In this document: positions 30,879-40,290 of the stretch, piece by piece | Layout: each line of letters opens with the position of its first letter | Numbering within the stretch: the stretch's first letter is position 1 | NCBI RefSeq assembly: GCF_015355625.1 | Contig: NZ_JACLAF010000019.1 | Location: 1-43,416, forward strand | Direction: 5' to 3' | DNA length: 43,416 bases | Origin: Tamlana sp. I1 | GTDB taxonomy: Bacteria > Bacteroidota > Bacteroidia > Flavobacteriales > Flavobacteriaceae | Program-made: the position numbers and the translations under genes | Notes under the pieces: generated by a model | Database searches by the model: none | The model's input: the letters and a program-made list of their open reading frames with translations, nothing else | Told to the model about the DNA's origin: nothing

Positions 30879-30902
30879 ATTTTTTAGTCTTATCTAAAAA
30901 TA
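30879..30902. promoter_or_regulatory. Candidate DtxR-type operator (copy 1)
   Basis: TTTTTAGTCTTATCTAAAAA at 30881-30900 is a palindrome with TTTTTAG/CTAAAAA half-sites and a 6-base spacer. The same sequence, reverse-complemented and differing by one end base, lies upstream of the TonB receptor at 37288-37307. It is centred about 40 bases upstream of the -7 box of the dtxR-like gene (autoregulation), and about 90 bases upstream of the divergent yraN start. Confidence 0.7.
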
Positions 30903-30926: not shown

Positions 30927-30934
30927 TATATTTG
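30927..30934 (+). promoter_or_regulatory. Promoter -7 box of the dtxR-feo operon
   Basis: TATATTTG matches TAnnTTTG and sits 16 bases before the chosen ATG at 30951. It rules out the longer frame starting at 30924, which would begin inside the promoter. Confidence 0.6.
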
Positions 30935-30950
30935 CCTGTATTTTAATGTT

Positions 30951-31604
30951 ATGGTTACACTATCTGAAGAAAATTATTTAAAGGCAATTTACCATTTAGG
31001 GAAACAAGGCACTGTTGCTGTAAGTACCAATGCTATTGCCGAAAAAATTGAGTCTAAAGCATCATCGGTTACCGATATGATAAAGAAATTGGCAGAGAAA
31101 AAATTAGCCAATTATATAAAATATCAAGGCGTTACCTTAACCGAAGCAGGAAGGTTGGCTGCTGCTTTAGTGATTAGAAAACACAGACTGTGGGAAGTGT
31201 TTTTAGTTGAAAAACTAAACTTTTCATGGGATGAGGTTCACGATGTTGCCGAACAGTTAGAGCATATAAAATCGCTAAAATTAGTAAATGAGTTGGATGC
31301 TTTATTAGGCTTTCCAACACACGACCCGCACGGCGATCCCATTCCAGATAAAGAAGGAAATTATTCGCCATTAAAAAGTGTGAATATTTTAGAGTTGAAA
31401 CCAGGAGATGAGGGGGTTTTAGCTCAGGTTAAAGATTCTTCAGACGTCTTTTTAAAATACCTTAACAAGAATAATTTAGCACTAGGAGACCAGATCAAGG
31501 TTTTAGATTTTGAACCTTTTGATAACTCATTAACCATTGAAACAACATCCCGAAAGATGATTATTTCTAGTGAAGTTGCTAAAAATTTATATATAAGTTT
31601 ATAA
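30951..31604 (+). CDS. DtxR-family metal-dependent transcriptional repressor
   Basis: A 217-residue repressor with three domains. The winged helix (about 1-65) has SEENYLKAIYHL and SKASSVTDMIKKLAEK. The metal/dimerisation domain (about 66-140) has HRLWEVFLVEKL, HDVAEQLEHIKS and HDPHGDPIP. The C-terminal SH3/FeoA-like domain has LELKPGDEGVLAQV. Aligned by eye, the site that is Asp8 in MntR and Met10 in DtxR is Asn here and the MntR Glu11 position is Lys, so this is not a classic MntR and metal specificity is open (iron or manganese). It leads the operon: the next gene starts in a TAATG overlap. A palindromic operator upstream suggests autoregulation. Confidence 0.93.
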   Translation: MVTLSEENYLKAIYHLGKQGTVAVSTNAIAEKIESKASSVTDMIKKLAEKKLANYIKYQGVTLTEAGRLAAALVIRKHRLWEVFLVEKLNFSWDEVHDVAEQLEHIKSLKLVNELDALLGFPTHDPHGDPIPDKEGNYSPLKSVNILELKPGDEGVLAQVKDSSDVFLKYLNKNNLALGDQIKVLDFEPFDNSLTIETTSRKMIISSEVAKNLYISL

Positions 31605-32632: not shown

Positions 32633-33397
32633 ATGGAACCTAAAGTAAATACAGCTTGCGAAACTTGTTCTCATTTTAATAAAGAGGGTTTAAAGAAATT
32701 GGGAATTCAAACCGATAATTTCGATTTTGTTGTGGCATTAGCAGGAAATCCAAACACAGGAAAAAGTACTGTTTTTAATGCTTTAACAGGACTGCGACAA
32801 CACACAGGGAATTGGCCGGGAAAAACCGTAGTGCGTGCCGAAGGTGGTTTCGAGTACAATACCAATAAATATAAACTGGTTGATTTGCCAGGAACTTATT
32901 CTTTACTTTCCACTTCGGAAGATGAGGCTGCTGCACGTGATTTTATTCTCTTCGGAAAACCCGATGTGACCATTATAGTTGTGGATGCTAATCGACTAGA
33001 ACGCAACTTAAATTTAGTACTTCAAATATTAGAGATTACCGATAAAGCTGTTTTGTGTTTAAACTTAATGGACGAAGCCAAACGAAATAAAGTTGACATC
33101 GATGTTAGAACGCTGTCCAGAGATTTAGGGATTCCCGTGGTGCCTGCAAGTGCTAGGTTTAATCAAGGGATTCCAGAATTAATTCAAACGGTGAGTGAAA
33201 TTGCTAGCGGACAAATTGTTTGTAAGCCACATCGCATAAAAAATGTGCCAGAAAACATTGAAAAAGCCGTAAAAACTTTAACGGCCGAAATAGAAAAAGA
33301 ATTTCCAAACATTCCAAACAGCCGTTGGATTGCTTTTCGTTTGTTAGAAGGCGATAAAGAAATTATTAAGGCTTTAAAATCGGGAGAATTTGTGTAA
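32633..33397 (+). CDS. feoB: FeoB N-terminal GTPase subunit (split FeoB)
   Basis: A 254-residue protein equal to the cytosolic part of FeoB. A 30-residue lead carries Cys9-x2-Cys12-x-His14, a possible metal ligand set not typical of FeoB. The G domain has G1 GNPNTGKST (38-46), G3 DLPGTYSL, G4 NLMDEA and G5 SAR. A helical GDP-dissociation-inhibitor region follows ([16 protein letters not shown] to the end). In FeoB this unit gates the membrane pore. The gene stops at TAA 33395-33397; after four sense codons the same frame continues into the permease ATG at 33410. The two together have 730 codons, the size of a normal single-chain FeoB. Confidence 0.93.
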
Positions 33398-33409
33398 TGC
33401 TTCAAGACT

Positions 33410-34828
33410 ATGAAAGAGAATAACATTGACAAAATAATAGAATTATCAAACGAATTGCGTTGGCAGATTGGTGACGAATTTCATGATAATCTTACAGAAG
33501 GAATTTATGCCGATGCAGCCGATATTGTTAAAGATACCGTAAAGACAAACGATTCTGAAAAACGATTCCGATTAGATGCTAAAATCGATAAAATTGTAAC
33601 GAGCAAGTATTTCGGATTTCCAATTATGTTTTTAATTCTAGGAACTGTTTTATGGCTTACTATTGTTGGGGCGAATTATCCGTCTTCCATGTTAGCAACT
33701 TTATTTTTAGACACCATTCATCCCATATTAAAAAGTGGTGCCGAAAACGTGAATATGCCTTGGTGGCTTGCAGGTTTTTTAATTGATGGAGTGTATTTGG
33801 CTGTGGCTTGGGTTATTGCAGTTATGTTGCCACCCATGGCGATATTTTTTCCCATGTTTACGCTTTTAGAGGATTTTGGTTATTTACCACGTGTGGCTTT
33901 TAATTTAGATGCCTTGTTTAATAAGTCTGGAGCGCATGGCAAGCAAGCATTAACCATGAGTATGGGCTTTGGTTGCAATGCTGCCGGGGTTGTGGCTACC
34001 CGTATTATCGATAGCCCTAGAGAACGATTAATTGCTATTATAACTAATAATTTTTCACTGTGTAATGGGCGCTGGCCGACACAAATTTTAATAGCGACCA
34101 TTTTTATTGGTGCTGTGGTTCCAGAATCTATGTCAAGTTTTGCATCATTATTAGCCGTAATTGGTATTGCTGTTTTGGGTATGGCTTTTATGTTTGGTGT
34201 GTCGTGGGCATTGTCTAAAACCGTTTTAAAAGGCGAGGTTTCAACTTTTAATTTGGAATTACCACCGTACAGACCACCGCGTTTCTGGAAAACCATATAC
34301 ACCTCTTTAATTGATAGAACTTTAATTGTTTTATGGCGTGCTATCGTTTTTGCAGCACCTGCAGGGGCTGTAATTTGGCTAATTTCTAATCTTCATATAG
34401 GTGATGAAACCATTGCTGCATGGTTAATAAATGGGATGGATGGCTTCGGATTTCTTATAGGATTGAATGGTGTGATTTTACTAGCGTATATAGTGGCTAT
34501 TCCAGCTAACGAAATTGTAATTCCTACCATTTTGATGCTAACCGTAATGGTAACGGGTATTGGCGGTGGCGCAGGAGCTGGCGTAATGTTCGAACTAGAT
34601 TCTATAAACGCCACAGGCGATATTTTAAGAGCTGGAGGCTGGACACTTCTAACGGCCATTAATTTGATGCTTTTTAGTTTGCTGCACAACCCGTGTAGCA
34701 CCACGATCTATACGATTTATAAAGAAACTAACAGTGCGAAATGGACACTAGTTGCTTCTATAATGCCTGTAATTTTAGGGTTTATAGTTTGCTTTTTAGT
34801 TGCTCAGATTTGGCGCCTTGCTTTTTAG
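33410..34828 (+). CDS. feoB: FeoB membrane permease subunit (split FeoB)
   Basis: This 472-residue protein starts with the rest of the FeoB spacer domain ([17 protein letters not shown]) and continues into about eight membrane helices with two Gate regions. Key pieces are [32 protein letters not shown] and [14 protein letters not shown], then [20 protein letters not shown] near the C-terminus. The pore signature CNGRWPT differs from the CSARLPVY of the other FeoB in this window, placing it in another FeoB branch. In P. gingivalis one of two FeoB proteins moves manganese rather than iron, so the substrate here may be Fe(II) or Mn(II). It ends the dtxR-feo operon. Confidence 0.92.
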
Positions 34829-35014: not shown

Positions 35015-37258
35015 TTACTTCAAAATATATCGTAACCCTAAAAATAGACGTCTGCCTTGGTTTGGTCCGTATACATAACCCGCATCGAAGGTTAGTCCAT
35101 AGGGATTGTCTGGGGTAACCATGGCATTACCATCACTGTCAAAAACCACATCTTTATCAAAAGGATCCTCTGCACGTGCAATAATAAATGGGTTGCCTTT
35201 GTTTGGTGTCCAATTTAGTAAGTTTTTAATACCGCCATAAATTTCAAAATTCTTTAAGCCTTCAAAAGTAAATTGAATGTTTTGAATGCTCCATACAGGC
35301 GATTCAGGTAATCTCGGGTCTAAATCACCTAAAAGGGGGAGTCGCATGGGGCCGTAAAGGTTTCCTGTATAGTCTATAGCAGTTTTATATTTATAAATTC
35401 TATAGGTTATGCCCCAAGTTCCTGTAAAACTTTCGGTTAAAATTTGACGTTCGGTAATGCCGTTTTCGGTTTGCGAAACATCTTGTACCGTCGCACCCAT
35501 AAGGATTTTAAGTCCGTTTGAAAGTGACGCGTCTATATTTAAACTCACGCCTTTGCTAACAGATTTTCCGTTTAAATTGGCATATATAATTTGATTGGGA
35601 TTGCTGTCGTAATCGGGGGCTATTAAATTACTAAAATAAGTATACCACGCCGAAGCTTCTAGTGTAAACATGTGTCCTTTTTTAGTGAATAATTTGCTTA
35701 AATAATTCATGTTTACGTTAATAGATTGCTCTGGTTTTAAAGCTTCAGCAATAATAACATCTCTAGAGCCAGTAAGTGCGGCATGTTCTTCAGTAAAAAG
35801 ATTAACTACACGAAAGCCTGTTCCGGCATTTAAACGTATAATATTATTTTCGGTAGGTTTAAATCTGTAGGCTATTCTTGGTGTAAAAATAGTACCGTGG
35901 CGTTTGTCGTAATCGTAACGTGCGCCTAATAGTAGATTGTTTTTCTCATTCAGTTTAATTTCATCTTGAACGAATATTGATGGAATCACGATTTCATCAG
36001 CCCTAAACGTTGCGGGTGTATTATCATCGTAATAATTATACCGCGCAGCTATTCCGAATAATAAATCATGATTTTTTAGTGGTTTATCCCAGGTAAGTTG
36101 TGAAAAACCAATGCGTTGTGTGGCCAAATAAGGGGTGTCTCCATACACCGAATTTTGATTATGATCGGTATATGAAAACTGAAGCATCATATTTTCATTT
36201 ACAGGCAATTGGTAGTTTCCTAAAATCTCGTATCGCGTCGTGTAAATGCTTTCACCATAAATTTCGTCGCCCCCTCTGTAGGAAGGGTTCCACTGCATTT
36301 CTCCGCCCCAGCGATCTTCATAAAAAAACCGACCAGCCATAGAAAAAACACGGTTTTCTTTTCGTTTGAAATTCCACTTTTGAAATATTGAAATTCTATC
36401 CTGTAAGGTTAAATCTGTAAAATTATCGTTGTTATTATCTATAGGATTACTGTAATTAAAGTAATTGATACCTAGAAGCACATCGGTTTTTTGTCCGATT
36501 CGTGCTTTAAAACCAGCATCTAAATTCCATTCTCCCCAACCCGAAACAAAACTATCGGCAAACACTAATGGTGCATTTTCTGAAAGTTTGGTAATAATAT
36601 TAATTAAACCACCAACAGCCTCACTGCCGTAAAGAGAAGAGGCAGGGCCTTTAACAATTTCAACCTGTTCGATTAATGAATTTGGAATTCCCGAAAGCCC
36701 ATAAACGGTAGATAAACCACTCACAATTGGCATGCCGTCTATTAAAACGAGGGTGTAGGGGCCTTCTAATCCGTTTATGTGAATATCGCCTGTGTTGCAG
36801 ACACTACAATTAATTTGAGGACGCACGCCGTTTACGTTTTGCAGAGCTTCAAATATGTTAGGTGTTGGGTTTTTCTTTAAGAATGTTGGTGTGTAAATTT
36901 CAACAGGAACGGGGCTATCAAGTCTAGAAACCGCCTTTAAAGTCCCGGTTACTACAACTTCATCTAGCATGGAGGAATCTAGTAGATTGAAATTAACATC
37001 AACATCTTCATTAGTGATTTTAATGGTTTTTGATTGTGGTTCAAAACCAGTATATGATGCGATAATGGTATAATTTCCAGCTGGATTGTTTTTAATAATG
37101 AAGCTGCCTTCTTCGTTAGTTGTGGCTCCTTTGGAGGTGCCTTTTAGGTAGACATTCGCGTAGGCCAGAGGCATGCCGTCAAATAAAACGCGACCGGTTA
37201 TGTCCTGAGCGTTTAAGGTAATTGAAGCTAAGCATAAAAATATAATTAGATATTTCAT
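35015..37258 (-). CDS. TonB-dependent receptor, predicted metal or metal-chelate importer
   Basis: A 747-residue outer-membrane receptor with a signal peptide (MKYLIIFLCLASITLNAQ) and a CarboxypepD-like domain (PLAYANVYLKGTSKGATTNEEGSF). The plug contains CSVCNTGDIHINGLEG and LVLIDGMPIVSGLSTVYG, then GPASSLYGSEAVGGLINIITK. A barrel follows, ending LFLGLRYILK. The CSVCNT plug motif with its Cys pair recurs in one branch of Bacteroidota receptors. The gene has the same palindromic operator as the dtxR-feo operon, which faces it, so it probably feeds that system; iron or manganese is the likely cargo. The frame opens at 37276, but the signal peptide starts at 37258 and the promoter box (37274-37281) overlaps the longer form. 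Confidence 0.92.
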   Translation of the reverse strand: MKYLIIFLCLASITLNAQDITGRVLFDGMPLAYANVYLKGTSKGATTNEEGSFIIKNNPAGNYTIIASYTGFEPQSKTIKITNEDVDVNFNLLDSSMLDEVVVTGTLKAVSRLDSPVPVEIYTPTFLKKNPTPNIFEALQNVNGVRPQINCSVCNTGDIHINGLEGPYTLVLIDGMPIVSGLSTVYGLSGIPNSLIEQVEIVKGPASSLYGSEAVGGLINIITKLSENAPLVFADSFVSGWGEWNLDAGFKARIGQKTDVLLGINYFNYSNPIDNNNDNFTDLTLQDRISIFQKWNFKRKENRVFSMAGRFFYEDRWGGEMQWNPSYRGGDEIYGESIYTTRYEILGNYQLPVNENMMLQFSYTDHNQNSVYGDTPYLATQRIGFSQLTWDKPLKNHDLLFGIAARYNYYDDNTPATFRADEIVIPSIFVQDEIKLNEKNNLLLGARYDYDKRHGTIFTPRIAYRFKPTENNIIRLNAGTGFRVVNLFTEEHAALTGSRDVIIAEALKPEQSINVNMNYLSKLFTKKGHMFTLEASAWYTYFSNLIAPDYDSNPNQIIYANLNGKSVSKGVSLNIDASLSNGLKILMGATVQDVSQTENGITERQILTESFTGTWGITYRIYKYKTAIDYTGNLYGPMRLPLLGDLDPRLPESPVWSIQNIQFTFEGLKNFEIYGGIKNLLNWTPNKGNPFIIARAEDPFDKDVVFDSDGNAMVTPDNPYGLTFDAGYVYGPNQGRRLFLGLRYILK

Positions 37259-37273
37259 TAAAATAAATTTATG

Positions 37274-37281
37274 CAAATATA
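37274..37281 (-). promoter_or_regulatory. Promoter -7 box of the TonB receptor gene
   Basis: The minus strand reads TATATTTG, matching TAnnTTTG, 15 bases before the ATG at 37258. The operator palindrome lies directly upstream, covering the -33 region. Confidence 0.6.
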
Positions 37282-37286
37282 AATAT

Positions 37287-37309
37287 AATTTTAGATAAGA
37301 CTAAAAATT
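37287..37309. promoter_or_regulatory. Candidate DtxR-type operator (copy 2)
   Basis: TTTTAGATAAGACTAAAAA (37289-37307) with AA/TT flanks is a TTTTAG-N6-CTAAAA palindrome, identical over 19 bases to the reverse complement of the site at 30881-30900, spacer included. It is centred about 20 bases upstream of the -7 box, overlapping the -33 element, a good position for a repressor. Confidence 0.72.
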
Positions 37310-37778
37310 ATGGTATGAAATGGAATTGTTGGGTGTTTAAAGTTTCAAAGTTTCAAAGTTTCAAAGTCTCAAAGTTGCAAAGATTCAAAGTTCCAGAGTG
37401 ATTAGGTGTGTTGAGGTTTGTGAAGCTGTACTTTTTTCAGACCATTCTTGATTAGTCTTAAAATTGAAATACTGAAAATAAGTTTCTAACACCCTGTAGA
37501 TTAAAAAATAGCAATGAAAACCGCTTATAGCAGTATGTTCACTCAAACAAAACCAAAAATTTCAAGTTTAAAACTCTCAATAAAAAGGTGTGCGGAGTCG
37601 ATAACATAAAATCTTCATTAAAACTAGCTGCTCGATAATGTTCGAAGTCCTTCCGGTTGGTTGAATTGTCATTATTGTGATAAAGTTGCAAAGCTTCAAA
37701 GCTTCAAAGCTTTTGTGAAGCGAATTTATTCCTCCATCAAACTAAATATAGAGAATTAAAAATGTGTAATTGAGGTGA
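37310..37778. other. Intergenic region with tandem 8-base repeats and REP-like sequence
   Basis: No supported gene. At 37338-37400 there are about eight imperfect copies of TTTCAAAG, and at 37684-37711 three to four copies of CTTCAAAG/TTGCAAAG. Between them, GCGGAGTCGATAA (37592-37604) with following GCTCGATAATGTTCGAAGTC resembles the REP-like segment at 16570-16715. A 31-codon frame from 37514 is not convincing. Confidence 0.5.
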
Positions 37779-37916
37779 TTAATGACAGCCGCAACCATCA
37801 TCGCCACCACAAGATTTTTTAGATTTCTTTTTTTTCCAGAAAAACTTTCTAATCAAAAAATATACAGCGCCTGCTATAGCTGCAAAAACTAATATATTTT
37901 GAATAATAGTATTCAT
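37779..37916 (-). CDS. FeoB-associated Cys-rich membrane protein (45 aa)
   Basis: This 45-residue protein begins MNTIIQNILVFAAIAGAVYF, a single membrane helix, followed by a Lys-rich cytosolic stretch (RKFFWKKKKSKKS) and a Cys/His tail CGGDDGCGCH. That layout matches the FeoB-associated Cys-rich membrane family. It starts 20 bases after the FeoB stop and is the last gene of the FeoA-FeoB unit. In such operons a small Cys-rich protein is thought to assist Fe(II) transfer or pore assembly, comparable in position to FeoC. The residues and location agree well with that. Confidence 0.9.
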   Translation of the reverse strand: MNTIIQNILVFAAIAGAVYFLIRKFFWKKKKSKKSCGGDDGCGCH

Positions 37917-37935
37917 GTTTTCTGTTGAGTTGAGA

Positions 37936-40035
37936 TTATTTCAAAAACTGAAATGCAATTAATGCGACAATATAAGCAAAAATAGACATGATAACCAGTT
38001 GTAAAACAGGCCATTTCCAGCTGTTTGTTTCACGCTTTACAATGGCTAAAGTACTCATGCATTGCATAGCAAAAGCATAAAAAAGTAAGAGTGAAATTCC
38101 TGAAGCAAATGTAAATAATGGACCTCCAAGAATGGGGTTAACCTCACCTGCCATGCGGTTTTTTATGGTTTCTTCATCATCGCTTCCAACGCTGTAAATC
38201 GTTGCTAAAGTTCCAACAAACACTTCACGAGCAGCGAACGAACTAATAATGGCAATGCCTATTTTCCAATCGTAACCAAGTGGTCTAATCGCTGGTTCTA
38301 TGGCGCGTCCCGAAATACCTATGTATGAATGTTCGAGTTTATATTGCGCTATTTTATGATTTAAATCGTCTTCATCTAAATTTTGAGAAGCGTATTTTTC
38401 AGTCATAATTTCTTCGGCACTGTTAAAGTTTTCACCAGGCCCATAAGAAGCTAAAAACCATAATATTATTGAAATCGCTAAAATAATTTTTCCAGCACCA
38501 AAAATGAAAGCCTTTGTTTTTTCAACAACAGTAAGCAATACATTTTTTAATAAAGGCAATTTGTAGTTTGGCATTTCAACCACAAAAAAGGTTTTATTCT
38601 TTATTTTAAGAATTTTGTTTAAGATGTAAGCCGATAAAACTGCAGTTCCAAAACCTAATAAATACAACAGCATTAAAGTTAAAGGTTGGTAGCCCAAGCC
38701 AAGAAATCGACCTTCGGGAATCACCAACGATATAATAATTAAATACACCGGAAGTCTTGCCGAACAGGTTGTAAATGGCGTAACCAAAATAGTAATCAGG
38801 CGTTCTTTCCAACTTTCTATATTTCTAGTGGCCATAATGGCTGGAATAGCACAGGCAGTTCCAGAAATTAAAGGCACCACACTTTTTCCGCTTAAACCAA
38901 AACGACGCATCACGCGATCCATTAAAAAAACCACACGGCTCATATAACCACTTTCTTCTAAAACAGAGATAAACAGAAATAAGAAGGCAATTTGTGGTAT
39001 AAATATAACAATACCGCCAAGTCCGGGAATAATCCCTTCAGAAAGTAAATCGGTAAAAGCTCCTGCAGGTAAATGGTCGCTTGTCCATTCGCTTAAAAAC
39101 GCAAACGCCGTGTCTATCATGTCCATGGGGATGGTTGCCCAATCGTAAATGGCCTGAAAAACAAGAATTAAAACAGCAAAGAAAATAACGTATCCCCACA
39201 CTTTGTGTGTTAAAATGCGGTCTAGTTTCGAGCGTAAATCTTTGGCTTGAGTGGCATCAATAGTTTGGCCTGTTTTAAGAGCGTTATTAATAAATTGATA
39301 GCGCTTTATGGTTTCTTTTTGCTGAAGTCGTTTTAAGTCGCCTTTACTTTTGGTTTTAAAATCTTCAACAGCATCAAATTCTTTCCGGTTTGTAGTTCCA
39401 AAATTAACATCTTGAGTAATAACCAACCAAAGCTTGTATAATAGCTGATTGGGAAATGCTTTTTTCAGATTATTAAAATAGTTGTTGTCAATTTCAGAAA
39501 TATCAATGCAAGGTTTCGACGAGACTTCTTTGTAATTGGTAATAAGTTCTTTCAGCTTATCAATACCAATATTTTTTCGTGTACTTACAAGCGCAATTTT
39601 GGTTTGAAGTTTTTCCTCTAAACCTTCAATATCTAACGAAATTCCTTTGTAGCTCATCCTATCAGCCATGTTTATAACCAATAGTGTAGGAATTTGTAAA
39701 TCTTTTATTTGTGTAAAAATCAGTAAATTACGTTTCAAATTTTCAACATCGGTAACCACAACGGCGATGTCTGGAAAATCTTTATCGTTTTGATTTAAAA
39801 GTAATTCGATAACCACACTTTCATCAAGCGACGAAGCATTTAAACTGTACGTTCCCGGTAAATCGATAATATGGGCTTTTACGCCACGAGGTAATTTGCA
39901 AACACCTTCTTTTTTTTCAACGGTAATGCCTGGGTAATTTCCAACCTTCTGGTTTAATCCTGTTAAAGCATTAAAAACAGAGGTTTTTCCTGTGTTTGGG
40001 TTACCAATTAACGCAACATTTATTTGTTTACTCAT
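37936..40035 (-). CDS. feoB: Ferrous iron transporter FeoB (single chain)
   Basis: A 699-residue complete FeoB. The G domain at the N-terminus has G1 GNPNTGKTS (11-19), G3 DLPGTYSL, G4 NMADRM and G5 STR. The spacer domain runs to about residue 270, followed by two Gate regions with SGTACAIPAIMATRNIESWKERL and the pore motif TTCSARLPVYLI, then REVFVGTLATIYS and the C-terminal helices. The CSARLPVY form is canonical for Fe(II)-transporting FeoB. It overlaps feoA by 8 bases and is followed by the Cys-rich small gene, giving the order feoA-feoB-Cys-rich. It is likely the main Fe(II) importer, distinct from the split system. Confidence 0.96.
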   Translation of the reverse strand: MSKQINVALIGNPNTGKTSVFNALTGLNQKVGNYPGITVEKKEGVCKLPRGVKAHIIDLPGTYSLNASSLDESVVIELLLNQNDKDFPDIAVVVTDVENLKRNLLIFTQIKDLQIPTLLVINMADRMSYKGISLDIEGLEEKLQTKIALVSTRKNIGIDKLKELITNYKEVSSKPCIDISEIDNNYFNNLKKAFPNQLLYKLWLVITQDVNFGTTNRKEFDAVEDFKTKSKGDLKRLQQKETIKRYQFINNALKTGQTIDATQAKDLRSKLDRILTHKVWGYVIFFAVLILVFQAIYDWATIPMDMIDTAFAFLSEWTSDHLPAGAFTDLLSEGIIPGLGGIVIFIPQIAFLFLFISVLEESGYMSRVVFLMDRVMRRFGLSGKSVVPLISGTACAIPAIMATRNIESWKERLITILVTPFTTCSARLPVYLIIISLVIPEGRFLGLGYQPLTLMLLYLLGFGTAVLSAYILNKILKIKNKTFFVVEMPNYKLPLLKNVLLTVVEKTKAFIFGAGKIILAISIILWFLASYGPGENFNSAEEIMTEKYASQNLDEDDLNHKIAQYKLEHSYIGISGRAIEPAIRPLGYDWKIGIAIISSFAAREVFVGTLATIYSVGSDDEETIKNRMAGEVNPILGGPLFTFASGISLLLFYAFAMQCMSTLAIVKRETNSWKWPVLQLVIMSIFAYIVALIAFQFLK

Positions 40036-40264: not shown

Positions 40265-40290
40265 GATTATTTAGATTGATTTTAAAGAAG

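Follow-up and report, generated by a model that had tools for sequence, protein, structure and literature searches.

Several described systems come close to the locus reported here. In P. gingivalis, the PgMntR-FB2 (FeoB2) system pairs a DtxR-family regulator of the Bacteroidota, which has FeoA domains, with a FeoB-type manganese carrier encoded alongside it, and PgMntR binds the promoter of its own operon; the available text of that report uses the strings 'operator' and 'palindrom' 0 times and names no site (PMC4805248). In another phylum, work published in 2026 on Stenotrophomonas maltophilia sets out a module in which a TonB receptor of the CQNC type, predicted to be under MntR, occurs together with a periplasmic thioredoxin-fold protein, a 25-bp MntR box, MntH and MntP; the string 'bacteroid' is absent from its main text as available (PMC13217887). 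The same source presents MnoT of Burkholderia thailandensis, a TonB-dependent outer-membrane manganese transporter that works with a secreted manganese-binding protein (PMC13217887).

Here, we analysed a 43,416-nt window, i.e. the whole stretch of DNA under study, from Tamlana sp. I1 (GCF_015355625.1, contig NZ_JACLAF010000019.1, positions 1 to 43,416 of the forward strand), in which a dtxR operon and a TonB receptor gene are each preceded by a copy of one palindrome. Comparison with related genomes leads us to propose, with a probability of about 0.9, that this palindrome, TTTAG-N6-CTAAA, is the operator of the DtxR repressor P0001 encoded at 30951–31604, which most likely responds to Mn(II), and that it controls both the receptor and the repressor's own operon. 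P0001 resembles PgMntR in its family, its FeoA-like domain and its FeoB-type partner, and is predicted likewise to bind its own promoter, at the site termed O1 below; it differs in having Glu where PgMntR has Cys at a ligand position, and, unlike PgMntR-FB2, for which the available text mentions no TonB receptor, it is found with a split FeoB and a second, membrane-anchored DtxR-like protein (PMC4805248). With the S. maltophilia module the locus shares an MntR-type regulator associated with a TonB receptor whose plug bears a CxxC motif, the split FeoB standing where that species has MntH and MntP (PMC13217887). The window receptor itself carries CSVC, not CQNC, and, flanked by FeoB_C and by the stretch of a lost dtxR2 gene, has no adjacent thioredoxin-like gene. 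In relatives, CxxC precedes an NGL motif in 49 of 54 cluster receptors longer than 600 aa (CQNC in 11; no CxxC in 5), and 13 of 80 dtxR loci have a thioredoxin-like gene adjoining the receptor. That the window cluster and the CQNC receptor module form one family is a lead. The outer-membrane role described for MnoT is the one predicted here for the window receptor, P0003.

DtxR operators are a known kind of site; what is new is the proposed assignment of a site kept in several families of the class, and its unusual partners. A full-text search of open-licence papers found no published operator for the nearest characterised regulator, and the palindrome offers a specific sequence, present in several families of one Bacteroidota class, as the predicted operator through which DtxR-family proteins regulate metal genes. 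It also predicts which of the 54 plug-matching TonB receptors in this genome imports manganese, and the locus draws attention to a DtxR paralogue whose target may be a transporter rather than DNA.

Genes and promoter sites in the window

The first gene of the operon, dtxR1 (30951–31604, plus strand), encodes P0001, a predicted metal-dependent repressor of 217 aa with helix-turn-helix (HTH), metal/dimer and FeoA-like domains (PF01325, 5.2e-13; PF02742, 5.2e-30; PF04023, 2.7e-10), which place it in the DtxR/MntR family. It is followed on the same strand by the gene for P0002 (31607–32629; 340 aa), a membrane-anchored DtxR-like protein by Pfam and structure model, and by two genes that together make up a split FeoB, namely the GTPase half FeoB_N (32633–33397; 254 aa; PF02421, 1.3e-59) and the membrane (Gate) half FeoB_C (33410–34828; 472 aa; PF07670 and PF07664), so that both FeoB domains are present on separate polypeptides. 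The GTPase half is a gene of its own in 11 of 80 relatives as well, so the split at 32633–34828 is not a sequencing frameshift; FeoB_C, too, is a separate gene in relatives. The TonB-dependent receptor P0003 (35015–37258, minus strand; 747 aa; assigned by Pfam) has its CSVC motif at residues 151–154, and Cys151, Cys154, Asp158 and His160 are each conserved with at most one exception among the 28 orthologues aligned from the 30 receptor loci described below (L138 and L139 were left out). Among the 30 plug loci examined of the 54 plug matches in its own genome, P0003 is the only one with CxxC. No terminator was found between FeoB_C and the receptor gene, and no riboswitch or other RNA reached the gathering threshold between 29000 and 41000.

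The pattern TTTTAG-N6-CTAAAA has two exact matches in the window, both exact palindromes without assigned strand: the predicted operator O1, TTTTAGTCTTATCTAAAA, at 30882–30899, and the predicted operator O2 at 37289–37306. Allowing up to two mismatches, 30 places match, against 14.7 (sd 4.2) expected, and none of 100 shuffles reached 30. An earlier, sequence-only reading of this DNA had reported a 19-mer shared by the two promoters; it is indeed present, at 37289–37307 on the plus strand and as its reverse complement at 30881–30899, one base to the left of the interval 30882–30900 given at the time. O1 and O2 have the same orientation when each is read towards its downstream gene.

Bacteroidota promoters carry TTTG around −33 and TAnnTTTG around −7. 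The same −7 element, TATATTTG, stands beside both palindromes, at 30927–30934 (plus strand) for the dtxR operon and at 37274–37281 (minus strand) for the receptor, and the proximity of both sites to TAnnTTTG boxes noted in the sequence-only reading was borne out, as was the overlap of one copy, here that of the receptor, with −33. The receptor box lies 8 nt past the operator core, and O2 spans the −33 region of this promoter; at dtxR, the box lies 28 nt past the 16-bp core of O1, which ends directly 5' of the −33 region. The palindrome covers −33 at the receptor only.

Across the 4.04-Mb genome, the loose pattern TTTTAG-N6-CTAAAA occurs in 13 places, against 14 for a backward control. The palindrome is thus not a repeat, and the hundreds of copies that the sequence-only reading had named as a sign of one are not there; yet, with counts at control level, its rarity alone is no proof of function. 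A stricter core, TTTAGNYNNRNCTAAA, occurs in 12 places against 5 for the control, of which 9 lie inside open reading frames of at least 100 aa, 1 lies across the start of one, and 2, the pair in the window, are intergenic. The extended core with one mismatch shows no clear excess (69 places against 61 in the control, with about 50 of the 69 among the matches listed), and a stricter form, made symmetric, turns up in 78 of the family's 149 genomes at 0–4 places each, controls likewise giving 0–4. We rejected genome-wide counting as a proof of function on the loose-pattern and one-mismatch figures. No promoter site was seen at the Nramp and ZIP loci of the same genome, checked as extra targets, where one core-like match was recorded (L305). 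The regulon visible in this genome by sequence is very small, comprising the dtxR operon and the receptor.

Conservation of the palindrome among relatives

We searched with the DtxR of the window and took the best 80 of 535 confirmed dtxR loci; the locus sets overlap, L130 being the window itself and L014 and G084 probably one genome. In 61 of these 80 loci, the 250 nt upstream of dtxR contain the exact 16-bp core TTTAG-N6-CTAAA, compared to 4 of 4000 shuffled windows, and in the relatives mostly about 60–73 nt from the dtxR start. Widening the search to 2.2 kb raises the count to 75 of 80: the 14 loci gained are from Flavobacterium, where the site is followed by an Nramp gene (Pfam-confirmed on L057) and then by dtxR. 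In 4 Winogradskyella loci, the site precedes a run of TonB receptor, thioredoxin-like gene and dtxR. No core was found at L078 of the 80-locus set. Aligned sites read TTTAG(A)(C/T)NN(G/A)(T)CTAAA with A/T-rich flanks, these sites having been pre-selected by their TTTAG and CTAAA arms and by pyrimidine/purine at two inner positions, and the best form of the operator is TTTAGAC-NN-GTCTAAA. On the dtxR side, a TAnnTTTG box lies 24–28 nt from the core in 51 of 62 sequences.

Further from the window, in 29 additional nearer loci (L213–L241) searched over 350 nt upstream of dtxR, 17 have the exact core, 1 a match with one mismatch and 11 no match. Twenty dtxR promoters from other families, hand-picked from a longer list and searched within 350 nt, gave the exact core in 10, one mismatch in 3 and nothing in 7. 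Those from the same class or order account for all the matches (13 of 17, exact or with one mismatch); the failing promoters comprise all 3 taken from outside the class, both of those from one family belonging to the same order, and both of those from a further family within the class.

The receptor side gives a matching picture. Of 149 genomes of the family, 48 have a clear receptor orthologue (list read by eye), and in the best 30 loci, window included, the exact core lies 39–85 nt upstream of the receptor start in 27, with dtxR standing head to head with the receptor around one operator in 25. Viewed from the dtxR loci, a divergent receptor lies within 600 nt of dtxR in 35 of 80, and in 31 of these 35 divergent pairs the edge of the site that faces the receptor is 8–9 nt away from a TAnnTTTG box, versus 4 of 26 others and 17 of 6100 shuffles. 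The exact core is missing from the promoter of three receptor orthologues (L137, L143 and L144); directly upstream of each, in the same direction, is a dtxR-like gene of 31–36% identity, and the only exact core in these three loci is a match inside that gene in L144. These loci may use a different DtxR with a different operator. Two further sets of receptors were observed beside the same site, those of L033, L042 and L061, which are only about 24–32% identical to P0003 and have a CQNC plug, and those of L054, L059 and L076, which have no CxxC, as if receptors had been swapped under one switch.

The palindrome has, in short, what marks a DtxR-type operator, lying beside a repressor gene and metal-uptake targets and being kept between species. 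That it is a chance match or a dispersed repeat would fit the control-level counts of the loose pattern in the genome; position and geometry conserved over many genera refute this as far as sequence can, and we give it a negligible chance. The identity of the two spacers, which had been offered as evidence, was not retained, as the two sites of the nearest relative (L014, L263) are TTTAGTCTTATCTAAA and TTTAGACGAACCTAAA.

Fur boxes are typically inverted repeats rich in A and T, with a 7-1-7 layout. The palindrome could on this ground be taken for a Fur/PerR box read by a Fur-family protein, and an open reading frame judged Fur-like by eye does lie near the site in the Flavobacterium loci; the core spacing, however, is even (N6), and in other families of the class, too, the site goes with dtxR. 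The box quoted in the available text of a study on the flavobacterial relative Riemerella also differs (PMC7976709). Together these points make a Fur box very unlikely. As a candidate in its own right, the Fur box was rejected when TTAGAATNATTCTAA, searched with up to one mismatch, showed no excess in the genome (6 places, 6 in the control).

Loss of dtxR paralogues ties the palindrome more closely to this regulator. One relative, L262 (G061), has two dtxR genes, each with its own operator: dtxR1, 86% identical to that of the window, is followed by the gene for the membrane DtxR-like protein and by split feoB, whereas dtxR2, with 58% identity, is divergent from the TonB receptor. In L264 (G115), dtxR1 has been lost and its operator is kept before the membrane DtxR-like gene; reciprocally, in the window and its congener L263 (G084), dtxR2 has been lost and its operator is kept before the receptor. 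The former place of dtxR2 (37311–37778, no strand) holds about 470 bases of unrelated DNA with a GTTTCAAA repeat, and matches to the DNA of L262 flank this gap only, at 37259–37310 and 37779–37916, so that similarity returns at 37779, directly beyond where dtxR2 would end. With the dtxR2 proteins of L262 and L264 as queries, a search of 37256–38000 for a remnant gave nothing better than E = 1.6. The GTTTCAAA repeat is in tandem and occupies 37335–37392 within the replacing stretch.

Operators that outlast their neighbouring repressor gene are in keeping with a common operator recognised by any DtxR still present. P0001 is the only soluble DtxR found in its genome, and the remaining dtxR1 would plausibly serve both O1 and, in trans, O2. 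Operator position, the shared divergent operator, promoter geometry and the reciprocal losses of dtxR thus uphold, at the level of sequence, both the observation and the central interpretation of the sequence-only reading, that the palindrome links DtxR and the TonB receptor, and the support comes from conservation between species, neither from the identity of the two copies nor from their rarity in the genome.

From the sites, their positions and conservation, the gene content and the paralogue loss, all of which are read directly, we infer binding and repression as follows. With bound metal, most likely Mn(II), P0001 would bind O2 over −33 as a dimer or a pair of dimers and switch the receptor off, and metal-loaded P0001 on O1, just upstream of −33, would autoregulate the operon of dtxR, P0002 and split FeoB. 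At low metal, receptor and importer would be derepressed jointly, allowing uptake across both membranes.

Manganese or iron as the sensed metal

Soluble DtxRs of the 81 sets examined have ligands corresponding to His77, Glu99, Glu102 and His103 of B. subtilis MntR (numbering after MntR and DtxR reference sequences). The Glu99 position, which is Cys102 in DtxR, is Glu in 81 of 81, as in the manganese-specific subfamily, and the Glu11 position is Lys; at the Asp8 position, 80 of 81 have Asn and 1 has Asp, a departure from MntR. The NCBIfam MntR equivalog is not reached by P0001 (best NF047407, 150.5 bits, cut-off 350). The solved chains closest to P0001 are 5zr4, SloR, ScaR and 8pvt, manganese regulators or repressors according to their entry titles, and then IdeR and DtxR. 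ScaR, SloR, MtsR and DR2539 are among the closest solved sequences and, where full-length, have the same domain plan; P0001 differs from this group in its Asn at the Asp8 position.

Importers of four unrelated families take turns beside dtxR. Within 4.5 kb of the gene in the 80 loci, we called a ZIP transporter in 34, a TroA-type ABC system in 16, Nramp in 15, split FeoB in 11 and none in 4, each family being confirmed on one representative; L016 and L087, without a called importer, have parts of the split-FeoB operon. A family of manganese transporters, 'Meo', has been proposed by name in a study of Feo systems, as far as its available text goes (PMC8749426). The canonical feoA-feoB2 genes lie nearby (feoA before feoB2 being assigned by eye); in none of 31 loci does their leader contain the exact site, and in 1 of 31 it contains a match with one mismatch. 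A different near-palindrome, TTAAAATNAATCTAAA, was observed in this leader at about 40270–40290 of the window, just past a TAnnTTTG box, and it is found again in 16 of the 31 loci (counted by hand), some 250 nt ahead of feoB2.

Ligands like those of manganese repressors, interchangeable importers nearby and feoAB genes without an exact site (31 of 31) make manganese, rather than iron, the probable metal. Iron can be a substrate of Nramp, Tro and FeoB systems. The same operator and repressor could accordingly serve an IdeR-like response to iron, with the receptor taking up a ferric chelate and the split FeoB Fe(II), a reading that the presence of FeoB and FeoA domains and the Asn in place of MntR Asp8 would suit. 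The Glu at the Cys102 position of DtxR in all 81 proteins, the mostly manganese-regulating closest solved relatives and the lack of an exact site at feoA-feoB2 argue against it. The P. gingivalis precedent bears on both sides, in that PgMntR binds Fe(II) too and yet, according to the available text, binds the promoter of FB2, which transports manganese, and not the promoter of FB1, which transports iron (PMC4805248). The CxxC receptor under MntR in Stenotrophomonas likewise speaks for manganese (PMC13217887). On balance, iron is the less likely of the two metals.

A membrane-anchored DtxR-like protein beside split FeoB

P0002, which accompanies split FeoB, has a hydrophobic N-terminal helix (residues 6–23) followed by a DtxR fold, a FeoA domain and a second FeoA-like fold; its structure model (pLDDT 83.5, pTM 0.68) has the manganese-dependent repressor 5zr6 as best fold match. 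The metal ligands are kept in 14 of the 14 family members examined, with Asp at the Asp8 position. Its HTH, by contrast, is relaxed, with a mean majority-residue frequency of 0.68 versus 0.83 in the DtxR of the same genomes, and the metal domain (0.82) and the second FeoA domain (0.84) are not. PF01325 is reached at E ≤ 0.01 in 5 of 14 family members.

With its DtxR fold and intact metal ligands, P0002 might itself be thought to bind the operators in place of P0001, as a one-component membrane regulator. This is highly improbable: P0002 is present in 14 of 81 sets examined, whereas the operator lies near dtxR in 75 of 80 loci, and both the relaxed HTH and the few PF01325 matches speak against a DNA-binding role. 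We therefore keep to P0001 as the predicted binder. For P0002, FeoA is reported, in the available text of one study, to stabilise GTP-bound FeoB (PMC8980893), and we predict that P0002 may be a membrane-held metal sensor acting on FeoB_N. A fuller and more tentative scheme would be a complete flavobacterial manganese route of an outer-membrane CxxC receptor and an inner-membrane split FeoB, governed at two levels by one sensor fold, with the soluble DtxR acting on DNA through this operator and with a membrane-tethered paralogue, no longer binding DNA but retaining its metal site, presenting FeoA domains to the separate FeoB GTPase; we consider this as a whole possible, at somewhat less than even odds.

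A possible echo of P0002 was observed in L033, where the Tro genes after dtxR encode ABC-3 permeases of 345 and 463 aa with C-terminal extensions beyond the Pfam domain. These extensions look winged-helix-like by eye, that of the longer permease following extra membrane segments.
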